NCBI GenBank assembly: GCA_947627625.1
Contig: CANQWR010000011.1
Span: forward strand, 1 to 64,000
Direction: 5' to 3'
DNA length: 64,000 bases
From: an uncultured Ruminococcus sp.
GTDB lineage: Bacteria > Bacillota > Clostridia > Oscillospirales > Ruminococcaceae
Shown: piece after piece, positions 1 through 62,955 of the stretch
Position numbering within the stretch: the first letter of the stretch is position 1
Layout of the letters: each line of letters begins with the position of its first letter
Made by a program: the position numbers and the translations under genes
Notes under the pieces: model-generated
Told to the model about the DNA's origin: nothing
Seen by the model: the letters and a program-made list of their open reading frames with translations, nothing else
The model's database searches: none

Positions 1-166
1 TTGGGGGCAGAGCCCCCAATGGGGGTTCAGGGGGCAAAGCCCCCTGCCCCTTATACTTAAAACAGGGGGTTTGGGGGCAGAGCCCCCAATGGGGTTCAGG
101 GGGCGAAGCCCCCTGCCCCTTATAATCTAACAGGGGGTTTGGGGGGCGTAGCCCCCCAATGATAGT
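1..166. repeat. GC-rich hairpin repeat cluster, tandem units
   Basis: Two and a half tandem copies of a roughly 69-bp unit run from the window edge to the 3' end of pheA. Each carries GGGGGC/GCCCCC mini-hairpins with three-base loops (AGA, AAA, GAA, GTA). The cluster probably continues outside the window. Confidence 0.9.
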
Positions 167-189
167 TCAGAAGAACCCTTTTAGTTCTC

Positions 190-1302
190 TTAATAAGTCC
201 CCAGAATTTTGAAAAATTCGAGATTTTTCTGCAAATCATTTATGAGGGCGTGGACGGAGGGGTCGGAGAGTTTGCCCGAAAAATCGAGGAAAAAGAGGAC
301 TTCAAAACTGCCGTCTTTTATGGGTCTGCTCTCAATTTTAATCAGATTCATGCCGTTGACGTAGAATTTAGTTAAAAGTTTGTAAAGACTGCCCTCTGTG
401 TGGGGGATTTTGAGCATTACCGATACAGCGTCCGCATCGGGGGAGACCTGCATACTTCTTGAAATACAGATAAATCTCGTCCTGTTTACGGCACAGTCCG
501 CAATATTTTGTGCGACAATTTCAAGACCAAGCTGTCTTGCACACTCAACCGAACATATAGCACCAATGCACCTGTCGGGGGAGTTCAGGACCTTTTCGGC
601 AGAAGTGGCGGTGTTGCCGTATTCGGAAGTTCTGAGATTGTTTTCGGATAGGAAACTGCTGCACTGTGCGAGAGCCTGTGGGTGAGAGTAGACCTTTTCT
701 ATACTGTCCACGGGGACATTTTCCCTTGTGCAGAGACAGTGATTTATTTCAACGTCCACCTCTTTGACTATGTAGACATCATATTTTGACATCAGGTCAT
801 AAGTGCTTATGACAGAGCCAGCCGTGGAGTTCACAACGGGGAGTACACCGTACTGTACATCGCCGTTCTGGACAGCCTTGAAAACGTCCTCAAAAGAGCG
901 GAAGAAAACGGGTTTCACGCTGTCCCCGAAAATCATTCTGGAAGCCGTTTCGGAGTTTGCCCCCGAAGTACCCTGACAGCCTATTTTAGCGGCATTTTCA
1001 AAGTCGGGAATATCGTATTTAATTTCGGGGGACTCTGACAGGAGCTGTCTGTTCTGGAGAATTTTGCTTATTTCTATTATTGACGAGAACAACGCACAAG
1101 TGCCGTTTTCGAGACTTGCGTCACCTGTCAGAGATTTGATTCTATTGAGTATTTCGGTTTCTCTTTTGCCCTGAAAGACGGGCATATTGTTGGCACGTTT
1201 GTATTCGGCGACATCACCGCAAAGTTTCATTCTCTCAAGGAAGAGACCGAGAATTTTGTCGTCTATGCTGTCTATATTTTTTCTTATGTTGTTAAGATCC
1301 AT
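190..1302 (-). CDS. pheA: Bifunctional chorismate mutase / prephenate dehydratase (P-protein)
   Basis: This 370-residue enzyme should convert chorismate to prephenate and then to phenylpyruvate in cytoplasmic phenylalanine synthesis. Residues about 5-90 form an AroQ-type helical chorismate mutase domain, starting RKNIDSIDDKILGLFLERM. Residues about 103-285 are a prephenate dehydratase domain with the NRTRF catalytic signature near residue 276. Residues about 293-365 form an ACT domain with the ESRP motif that binds phenylalanine in this family, so feedback inhibition is expected. The length matches the fused P-protein. GGAGG lies about 10 bases before the ATG. The gene stands alone between two repeat clusters on the strand opposite to ruvC. 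Confidence 0.94.
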   Translation of the reverse strand: MDLNNIRKNIDSIDDKILGLFLERMKLCGDVAEYKRANNMPVFQGKRETEILNRIKSLTGDASLENGTCALFSSIIEISKILQNRQLLSESPEIKYDIPDFENAAKIGCQGTSGANSETASRMIFGDSVKPVFFRSFEDVFKAVQNGDVQYGVLPVVNSTAGSVISTYDLMSKYDVYIVKEVDVEINHCLCTRENVPVDSIEKVYSHPQALAQCSSFLSENNLRTSEYGNTATSAEKVLNSPDRCIGAICSVECARQLGLEIVAQNIADCAVNRTRFICISRSMQVSPDADAVSVMLKIPHTEGSLYKLLTKFYVNGMNLIKIESRPIKDGSFEVLFFLDFSGKLSDPSVHALINDLQKNLEFFKILGTY

Positions 1303-1359
1303 AAATTAAAGACCTCCGTTATTTTATTATTTTATTTAGATTGGGGGTTGTTTCTTATG

Positions 1360-1605
1360 TGGGAATAATTATGGGGGGGTCTGGGGGGATACTTCCCCCA
1401 GCGGGGGTTTGGGGGCGGAGCCCCCAATGGGGGTTCAGGGGGCGAAGCCCCCTGCCTCCTATCGTTCTAAATTAAAAATACTGAATTTCCAAAAAAATAT
1501 AATTTTAGAAAAATTATTTTTTGGGGTTTGAGGGCATAGCCCCCAATGGGGGTTCAGGGGGCGAAACCCCCAACAGCTTAAAAATTTATTTTTCAGACAA
1601 ATTTC
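1360..1605. repeat. GC-rich hairpin repeat cluster between pheA and ruvC
   Basis: The cluster has the module with GGGAATAATTATGGGGGG, the GGGGGA-TACT-TCCCCC hairpin, GGGGGC/GCCCCC hairpins and the AT-rich near-palindrome around 1490-1525. It occupies most of the 449-base gap before ruvC; no gene is seen in it. Confidence 0.9.
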
Positions 1606-1682
1606 CCCCGAACCCTGAGAGTTCCCATTAAATAATTATATCAGACTTTTTTGTAAAAATCAATAAAAAAGGAATAAATATA

Positions 1683-1711
1683 TTGCAAAGGAAAGCTGAT
1701 TGTGGTATAAT
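1683..1711 (+). promoter_or_regulatory. Sigma-A-type promoter of ruvC
   Basis: TTGCAA at 1683-1688 and TATAAT at 1706-1711 are separated by 17 bases. Transcription would begin near 1718, so a TTG codon at 1683 cannot be the ruvC start. Confidence 0.75.
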
Positions 1712-1751
1712 GATTTTGCGGAGCTTTATTGTTTGCGGGAGATGGTTTATT

Positions 1752-2237
1752 GTGATAAGGATCTTGGGGATAGATCCCGGGTATGCGATAGTGGGATTCG
1801 GAGTGCTTGACTATGACGGTTACAGTTTCAGACCTGTAAAATACGGTGCGATTCTCACGGAGGCAGACAGACCGTTTCCCGAACGTATAAAGACCATATA
1901 TGACGATATGGGGAGTATATTTCATGATTTCAAGCCCGACTGCATGGCAGTCGAGAAGTTGTATTTCAATTCAAATCAGAAGACGGCAATAAACGTGGCA
2001 CAGGCGAGGGGAGTGGTGATACTCTCGGGTGCGGAAAGGGATATACAAATAGCGGAGTACACGCCCTTGCAGGTAAAGCAGTCCGTTGTGGGGTATGGAC
2101 GTGCGGAGAAGAGTCAGATGATGGAGATGACGAGACAGCTTTTAGGGCTTGCGGAAGTTCCGAAACCCGATGATGTCGCCGATGCCCTTGCGGTTGCAAT
2201 ATGTCACGGACACACGGTAAGATGGGGAATATCTTAG
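1752..2237 (+). CDS. ruvC: Holliday junction endonuclease RuvC
   Basis: RuvC resolves Holliday junctions by symmetric nicking, together with the RuvAB branch-migration motor. The acidic active-site residues are visible: Asp in ILGIDPG near the N terminus, Glu in AVEKLYF, and the two Asp of KPDDVADALA near the C terminus. I chose the GTG at 1752, giving 161 residues. It is preceded by GGGAG 10 bases upstream, places ILGIDPG at the N terminus as in the family, and lies downstream of the promoter at 1683-1711. A longer frame opening at TTG 1683 would start inside the -35 box. ruvA follows in the same direction, but 630 bases of repeats lie between. Confidence 0.92.
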   Translation: MIRILGIDPGYAIVGFGVLDYDGYSFRPVKYGAILTEADRPFPERIKTIYDDMGSIFHDFKPDCMAVEKLYFNSNQKTAINVAQARGVVILSGAERDIQIAEYTPLQVKQSVVGYGRAEKSQMMEMTRQLLGLAEVPKPDDVADALAVAICHGHTVRWGIS

Positions 2238-62035: not shown

Positions 62036-62157
62036 AGTAAAAAACTCCTTAATAGATCGTGATCACAGGTTTTTTTGACCTGTTTTCAGCGTCATGAAAA
62101 ATTTTTTTTTGCAAATATGCGTATGGTGGAGGGGGTGGACTTCTCCTTAAGAGAAAA

Positions 62158-62430
62158 TCATTCCACGACAGCGAGAATGTCCTCCATTTTAACAATGATG
62201 TACTCCTCACCTTCGAGTTTTACATTAGTGCCCGAGTATTTGGAGATGAGGATTTTATCGCCCTTTTTGACCTCCATTTTCACATCGGGAGTACCGGGTC
62301 CCACTTCGACAACCTCGGCAACTTCGGGTTTTTCCTTAGCTGAGCCTGAGAGGATGATACCGCTCTTGGTAGTTTCCTCGGCTTCAGTCATTTTGACAAC
62401 GACTCTGTCCTGTAAAGGTCTGATAGTCAT
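62158..62430 (-). CDS. groES: Co-chaperonin GroES
   Basis: This is the 10-kDa lid of the chaperonin. The 90 residues carry [19 protein letters not shown], the mobile loop [17 protein letters not shown] that contacts GroEL, and the dome segment [22 protein letters not shown] lies before the ATG. A CIRCE operator and promoter are upstream, so HrcA heat-shock control is expected. Confidence 0.98.
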
Positions 62431-62460
62431 GATTAAATACCTCCTGAGAAAAATATCCTT

Positions 62461-62487
62461 TCAGCACTCACACATTCTGAGTGCTAA
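62461..62487. promoter_or_regulatory. CIRCE operator of groESL
   Basis: TCAGCACTC and GAGTGCTAA flank nine bases, one mismatch from the consensus TTAGCACTC-N9-GAGTGCTAA. It is the HrcA repressor site. Confidence 0.95.
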
Positions 62488-62492
62488 TATAT

Positions 62493-62520
62493 ATTCTAAC
62501 ATATTTTTTCTAAAAATCAA
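62493..62520 (-). promoter_or_regulatory. Promoter of groESL
   Basis: TTGATT (62515-62520) and TAGAAT (62493-62498) on the minus strand have a 16-base spacer, placing CIRCE at the transcription start. Confidence 0.6.
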
Positions 62521-62634
62521 GAGTATTCTCTAAACTTTCACAATCTTTGTAAGCCCTCACAATCGGCGTGACATTTTGGGATAAAATTATATATAGACTG
62601 CACAAAAAATGATGGACTATTATAGACACCGGAC

Positions 62635-62955
62635 TACCATTGGGGTGGGGGCAAAGCCCCCTGCCCCTTAGACTTAAAACAGGGGGGCGAAGCCCCCCAA
62701 TAGTCCACAAATCAAAAAATTTCCAAAAAAAATATAATTTTAATAAAATTATTTTTTGGGGGAAGAATCCCCCCAGACCCCCATGATTATTCCCACACAA
62801 GAAACAAACCCCGCCCACATGATGGAAACTCAGTCCAATTTCACTAATATCTGAATAGTGAAAAAACTAAAAAATATATAATCACGGGTTTCCAAAGGGG
62901 GTTTCCCCCTTTGGCGGGGGGAGTGGGGGGCAGAGCCCCCCACAAACTAAGTCCC
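62635..62955. repeat. Repeat cluster between groES and the O-antigen-ligase-like gene
   Basis: It contains GGGGGC-AAA-GCCCCC, an AT-rich near-palindrome at about 62720-62755, the inverted CCCCCATGATTATTCCCACA module and the CCAAAGGGGG/CCCCCTTTGG hairpin with GAAACCCG. It ends at the next gene's stop. Confidence 0.9.

Follow-up and report, generated by a model that had tools for sequence, protein, structure and literature searches.

A probable family of polar multi-hairpin intergenic elements amplified in an uncultured Ruminococcus sp.

The DNA studied here, referred to as the window, is a stretch of 64,000 nucleotides (bases 1–64000 of contig 11) from a genome assembly of an uncultured Ruminococcus sp. 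(2.04 Mb, 38 contigs, 87% complete). Pfam analysis of 48 open reading frames (ORFs) in it identified genes with housekeeping and sporulation functions as well as dockerin and glycosidase genes. No catalytic domain of a transposase was among the matches, in line with the first-pass annotation of this DNA, which had seen no transposase nearby. Many of the gaps between these genes hold clusters of short GC-rich hairpins. We consider it fairly probable that all these clusters represent a single type of intergenic element, polar, non-coding, and made of several hairpins. Its family would extend over many genomes of the genus, with weaker traces outside it, and the element would have been amplified in this genome. 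For analyses within the genome, the window was combined with 383 kb of further stretches (447,060 bases in total), in which a codon-usage script called 381 genes. The script overlooked at least truA (14526–15269), and the listed gap 14657–15411 is hence mostly gene.

Hairpin clusters and their module order

Hairpins with a G-run/C-run stem numbered 446 in the 447 kb, 97 of them within the window, and 445 of the 446 lay outside called genes, with one inside. Six loci (164 kb in total) held 151 such hairpins, compared with a mean of 1.0 in two shuffles in which genes and gaps were shuffled separately. Among window gaps of at least 100 bp, 20 of 29 had at least 50 bases repeated at least three times elsewhere, and one more cluster stands at the contig start. 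Another place within the 447 kb was matched by 42.7% of gap bases; in 100 sampled coding pieces, 0% of bases had at least three matches and 1.8% at least one. The first-pass annotation had counted about 21 clusters outside genes, with a list of modules, varying triloops, and both orientations, all of which were recovered, while its statement that nearly every gap is filled has to be reduced to the above fraction of the longer gaps.

This abundance is peculiar to the genome. The 15-mer GGGGGCNNNGCCCCC occurs 797 times here versus 0–27 times in each of 124 congeners, of which 11 hold any copy, and its reversed-pattern control gave 0 matches in this genome. Likewise, a G-run-plus-hairpin pattern gave 973 matches here (both strands) versus no more than 14 in each of 390 further genomes sampled from the class; its reversed control gave 323 matches here (both strands) rather than zero, because G-runs are so common in the genome. 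Contigs C3, C6, C7, C9, C11, C17, and C23 start or end in an element or at most 20 bases from one, as near-identical copies are expected to break an assembly.

When the modules were tokenised, they followed, with few exceptions, the order head, hpA, sometimes hpF, hpB, hpC, linker, and then hpD and/or an AT-rich (AT) hairpin. The hpA hairpin is GGGGGGA-NNNN-TCCCCCC, the loop is AGA or GGA in hpB and AAA, AAC, or GAA in hpC, and the linker is of the CTTATCGTTCTAA type. With all arrays turned to one strand, hpA was followed by hpB 52 times, hpB by hpC 64 times, hpC by the linker 47 times, and the linker by the AT hairpin 23 times, while the reverse neighbours hpB–hpA and hpC–hpB were counted 0 and 2 times, respectively. 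The AT hairpin was also followed by the linker 12 times, because tails are repeated. Core orientations are mixed in 2 of the 95 gaps with core modules, and an orientation bias between loci was not significant (p = 0.36). By eye, several head types meet at TCATGGGGGG, and one locus (L037) has several hpC in a row. The loose, freely shuffled vocabulary described at first pass is thus better described as a polar order, in which most modules are slots of one ordered element.

The clusters in the window are as follows.

1–159, plus strand: contig-start cluster; hpB, hpC, hpB, hpC, hpD
1361–1580, plus strand: head, hpA (one C short), hpB, hpC, AT hairpin, more hairpins
2337–2819, plus strand: head, hpA, hpB, hpC, hpD, two AT hairpins; ruvC/ruvA gap
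4491–4775, plus strand: head, hpA, hpF, hpB, hpD, AT hairpin; sseB/ruvB gap
5990–6336, minus strand: minus-strand AT hairpin, hpC, hpB position, hpA, head; then hpF, hpG
9501–10071, plus strand: hpA position, hpB, hpC, hpD, hpE, two AT hairpins; gap of two ABC genes
16577–16704, plus strand: hpA, hpB, hpC, one more hairpin
22499–22605, plus strand: AT hairpin, truncated hpC, hpD
24286–24437, no strand assigned: AT hairpin, G/C hairpins, CCAAAGGGGG hairpin
25418–25725, minus strand: minus-strand AT hairpin, hpC, hpB, hpA; then GGGGGACAGC hairpin
27172–27615, plus strand: hpD, hpE, head, hpA, hpB, hpC, AT hairpin and tail
33443–34372, no strand assigned: largest cluster; four cores, three on the minus strand and one on the plus strand
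36767–36853, plus strand: linker and AT hairpin, remnants
38483–38691, plus strand: hpA, hpF, hpB-like hairpin, hpC, hpD-like hairpin
40736–40958, plus strand: hpB, hpC, hpD, AT hairpin
43562–43827, plus strand: head, hpA, hpB, hpC, AT hairpin, hpA (reversed loop), hpC, hpD
46092–46242, plus strand: consensus copy; head, hpA, hpB, hpC, hpD
47710–48040, minus strand: minus-strand hpD, hpB, other hairpins; core match 47800–47907
51353–51484, plus strand: hpA, hpB, hpC, one more hairpin
60183–60337, plus strand: consensus copy; head, hpA, hpB, hpC, hpD
62647–62943, no strand assigned: G/C hairpins, AT hairpin, reversed hpA and head, CCAAAGGGGG hairpin

A small TGCCTTACGGCA-type hairpin adjoins the CCAAAGGGGC/GGGGGACAGC module group at 6325–6335, 9727–9737, 25715–25725, and 34121–34131. 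On the minus strand at 47710–47822, an element cluster gave an Rfam Thr_leader match of 45.1 bits, below the gathering score of 55; hairpins probably fit this model by chance. Upstream of two tandem paralogues that have no Pfam family (20818–22485 and 22626–24272), about 58 nt are common to both, including an AT hairpin near the start codon; the GC hairpins beyond this common part are not alike.

Gene gaps, transcription, and stem pairing

We compared gap lengths in a conserved gene block common to up to seven relatives with the relatives' median. Five of the six element-bearing gaps exceed this median.

pheA–ruvC, element-bearing: 449 here, 212.5 in relatives
ruvC–ruvA, element-bearing: 632 here, 14.5 in relatives
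sseB–ruvB, element-bearing: 422 here, 42 in relatives
ABC–ABC, element-bearing: 617 here, 98.5 in relatives
DUF5711–colV, element-bearing: 285 here, 69 in relatives

Eight gaps are element-free; one is equal, four are shorter, and three are longer here (ruvA–sseB, 184 versus 59, where one relative's value is a gene-extension artefact; pgm–MTase, 51 versus 14; and yfhO–DUF5711, 755 versus 651, which contains truA). Most element-bearing gaps are longer here than in relatives and, on a plain reading, element DNA would have been gained in this lineage, including in the ruv gene cluster. The placement between transcription units proposed at first pass has to be widened, because copies also occur within blocks that are tightly spaced in relatives (ruvC–ruvA and sseB–ruvB).

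The annotation had also listed terminators among the possible roles. At least five T in the next 8 nt were found on 10 of 892 hairpin sides, compared with 10.9% of gap 8-mers, and hairpins are present in 24 of 41 divergent gaps; on this T-tract depletion and this placement, the terminator reading is not supported and was rejected. We also weighed another role at the RNA level, in which hairpins transcribed between cistrons or at the ends of mRNAs would block or guide RNases and be kept as beneficial. Strong stems, an exact stem length, and presence between codirectional genes would suit such a role, which we nevertheless regard as unlikely, since besides the occupied divergent gaps and the scarcity of T-tracts, the elements in codirectional gaps show no significant tie to the direction of the genes (24 point with them and 36 against; p = 0.155).

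The stems themselves are precisely delimited. In 354 equal-run hairpins, the first and second outward pairs were Watson–Crick in 94.6% and 94.4% (shuffles, 37.1% and 43.8%), while the third and fourth paired in 5.6% and 4.5%, which is below chance (shuffles, 33.7% and 36.4%); stem length is therefore fixed. Among 19 distinct cores of this genome, compensated change was found at 3 of 25 pairs in 12 cells. The compensated cells and the covariation score were above all 500 shuffles. The number of pairs with both-sided change was not above chance (93 of 500 shuffles reach it), nor were further pair types, so that two of the five shuffle measures fail in all. Compensation within the genome rests on few variants, and the constraint on structure suggested by the annotation is supported more strongly across the genus (21 of 25 pairs, see below) than within the genome. 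The two outcomes that the annotation had named as speaking against it, namely no stem-preserving covariation or copies equally common inside genes, were looked for and not found.

Related elements in congeners and beyond

When 60 genomes were searched with a 92-base DNA query, two matched, namely this genome and a congener. R1, a covariance model of the 84-nt three-hairpin core built on 19 of 33 distinct cores, matched 50 of 125 genomes of the genus, this one included (E ≤ 1e-4; 36 candidates were scored per listed genome and E-values are rough). Among the matches listed, congeners scored 47–65 bits and this genome up to 115.6. Four congener loci of 20 kb each, which serve as a partial negative control, had no R1 match at E ≤ 0.01. 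We then picked 48 copies from 34 genomes out of the listed R1 matches and aligned them to R1. A typical congener copy reads GGGATTCCAAAGGG..CCCTTTGG, then CCAGAGGC-AGN-GCCTCTGG, and then TGTGGGGC-AAA-GCCCCACA. Compared with this genome, the order is kept, loops and linkers are alike (the hpB and hpC loops AGA and AAA are common to both), and the stem letters are different. In the 45 distinct rows of the alignment, 99.4% of cells pair, and both-sided change occurs in 21 of 25 pairs (shuffles, 12.5). Further pair types numbered 46 versus 41 in shuffles, a value reached by 8 of 500 shuffles, the covariation score was 0.523 versus 0.179 for shuffled and 0.021–0.154 for slid alignments, and RNAalifold returned the identical structure.

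Spread and matching stems could also arise from replication accidents, in which hairpins provoke template switching. One arm would then be templated by the other, and segments would be carried from gap to gap, with neither an enzyme nor selection on the fold. Perfect arms, tandem units joined at G-runs, and the G-run microhomology between modules would fit this account. It does not readily explain why slot order is the same and loops and linkers are similar in many species, or why hundreds of dispersed copies occur here while no congener exceeds 27 copies of the 15-mer, and we hold it to be improbable.

The congener element extends beyond the core. Twenty of the 48 copies match a pattern with two extra hairpins, and alignment of 19 of them gave a five-hairpin element of about 170 nt, in which 25 of 57 predicted pairs are compensated. 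The motif of its second hairpin, GTCCAGAGGCNNNGCCTCTGG, was present in 59 of 125 genomes; copies numbered up to 165 (G018), and this genome had 0. R2, a covariance model of the whole five-hairpin element, matched 8 of 291 sampled genomes of the class (nine candidates were scored in those listed). This genome scored 74.7 bits, G287 from a second genus of the family 118.8, and G351 from another family of the order 78.2; the five others scored at most 46.4. In the R2 alignments shown for this genome, slot 4 is an AT-rich hairpin in two of three and hpD in the third. Rfam models gave nothing on the element at E ≤ 0.1 in eight congener loci, and T-box and SAM riboswitch matches lay outside it, below gathering scores.

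At one locus of this genome (L176, contig 31), the congener first stem CCAAAGGGGG..CCCCCTTTGG precedes the local second and third hairpins. A regular expression for this stem directly before hpB–hpC matched 0 of 87 cases in the 447 kb, a set in which L176 does not lie. In a local pair, GGGGGACAGCGTCCCCC comes after the CCAAAGGGGC hairpin, as in the congener order. Because L176 joins the congener first stem to local hairpins, the CCAAAGGGGC hairpin is probably the older form of slot 1; these slot assignments are inferred. This genome carries mostly the G-run version of the element.

These observations bear on the view that GC-rich hairpin arrays here and in congeners are alike by convergence rather than descent, the local repeats being a family of their own. 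The scant DNA similarity found by the 92-base query speaks for it, as does a Streptomyces array to which R1 also gives 40.5 bits, so that R1 alone is no proof of descent. L176, the common AGA and AAA loops, the AT hairpin in slot 4 of two of the three R2 alignments, and the four congener loci without an R1 match speak for descent, and we judge convergence quite unlikely.

Similar G-run/hairpin arrays were also seen in a Streptomyces record and two high-GC viral contigs, where short hairpins with G-run linkers lie at L025 3600–3980, L132 ~8220, and L133 ~4117. Phage and plasmid collections gave no match to the element, and viral contigs contained no match to two patterns taken from this genome. 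The congener-type pattern matched the two viral contigs within this other kind of high-GC array, which has no bearing on the element family, and carriage by phages or plasmids was set aside.

Mode of spread and known systems

The copies are dispersed, keep a slot order, are absent from genes, have compensated stems, and have a three-hairpin architecture in common with congeners, and it seems that the fold is preserved even as the letters change. The reading we favour is an intergenic element like REP or BOX that is non-autonomous and has undergone amplification and reshuffling in this genome. Such an element would consist of up to five successive hairpin slots. Both arms of a stem could take on new letters, with the order of the slots, the short loops, and the linkers mostly staying as they are. 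Here, slots one to three would mostly have become GGGGG/CCCCC, and the element would have spread to hundreds of gaps, also into gene blocks that are tight in relatives. A trans-acting enzyme may have inserted the copies as a non-autonomous unit that it recognises by the folded strand, and modules may have been gained, lost, and duplicated between the G-runs that separate hairpins.

Integron integrases read attC sites as single-strand hairpins. By analogy, a trans factor might recognise the element by shape alone, reading a row of single-strand hairpins; we regard this as possible and rather doubtful. Stems would then be free to change as long as pairing, loop, and spacing were kept, and this genome would represent a case in which nearly all stem letters had already changed. 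More generally, repeats that are unlike by sequence are joined here into one structured family within a large bacterial genus. This suggests that interspersed elements can swap most stem letters yet keep their fold, and it makes shape recognition testable. Covariance models can trace such families where DNA search fails, as seen from the genome counts of R1 and the 92-base query.

The first-pass annotation had proposed a family of miniature inverted-repeat transposable elements (MITE) or repetitive extragenic palindromes (REP) mobilised in trans, and a REP-associated (RAYT-type) transposase as the enzyme to look for. This remains the best fit as to the element, and the searches returned no mobiliser. 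Y1_Tnp had no match at E ≤ 0.001 in the 87%-complete assembly, nor did RVT_1 or the TnpB zinc-ribbon family have any; DDE, Y2, and tyrosine/serine recombinase families were not searched genome-wide. TniB (AAA model) was seen in the window solely as a secondary match, for a Clp-type ATPase and, at a score below the cut-off, for an ABC ATPase. Y1 matches were obtained in 7 of 15 other genomes tried, weakly in G017 and G134. In G017, locus L065 (202–14210) contains several GTAG-tagged REP-like hairpins.

Several points weigh against the preferred reading. None of the transposase families tried (Y1, reverse transcriptase, TnpB) matched in the assembly, and the ends of 19 congener copies carry no short target duplication (mean shared word 3.1 versus 3.3 shuffled). 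Change on both arms is also possible via whole-hairpin exchange or template switching without selection. The congener copies were chosen with R1 and their alignment was fitted to it, which biases them toward pairing, and the Streptomyces score belongs here as well. Among the gaps, ruvB–pgm bears the element yet is shorter here (489 versus 598), the element-free ruvA–sseB is longer, and ABC–ABC is long in two relatives (832 and 1458).

Marks of another kind were seen around some congener copies. Equal, locus-specific stretches of 25–31 bp stand on both sides of 5 of 84 flanked copies (L172, L084, L097, L099, and L117, of which L097 and L099 seem to be a single locus in two species). They exceed the 99.9th percentile of cross pairs, a weak excess since some cross pairs score higher, and could be the scar of an insertion or the trace of an earlier duplication. 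In L107, a 51-column inverted match contains a terminator-like hairpin, and the locus-specific flanking sequence around these six loci is often a terminator-like hairpin. Three of 84 congener copies (L166, L173, and L094; two are near-identical in one genome) have an inverted repeat of 14–18 bp close to each end, a feature not seen in this genome. CTACA, the complement of the GTAG tag, occurs at most 70 nt 3' of 21 of 56 full-length congener copies; by eye, several of these sites read as REP-like hairpins.

We found no description of this hairpin-array family in the literature, as judged mainly from abstract-level text. The consensus of the Rfam family RF02937 (Clostridiales-2 RNA) starts with an A/U-rich stretch, GGGGGU, and a GC hairpin, as does the module foot here; membership is ruled out by scores of 23.2–27.0 bits in the window versus a gathering score of 58.6. 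With REP/BIME and the GTAG- and CGTC-tagged REPs, as far as the description in PMC3733652 goes, the element has in common short palindromes in high copy number and mainly extragenic placement, and high copy outside genes is what we observed here. It differs in being a multi-slot polar composite and, with regard to the GTAG/RAYT type, in the near absence of the tag (1 GTAG hairpin in 447 kb); Y1 gave no match in the 87%-complete genome. BOX of Streptococcus pneumoniae has a different hairpin layout, and its terminal inverted repeats and target duplications, reported in PMC3049150, were not found in this genome. By the same description, BOX is likewise a small, interspersed, ordered modular composite, clustered with other repeats, with predicted stem-loops and no transposase of its own, and ordered modules with a variable inner copy number are found in both.

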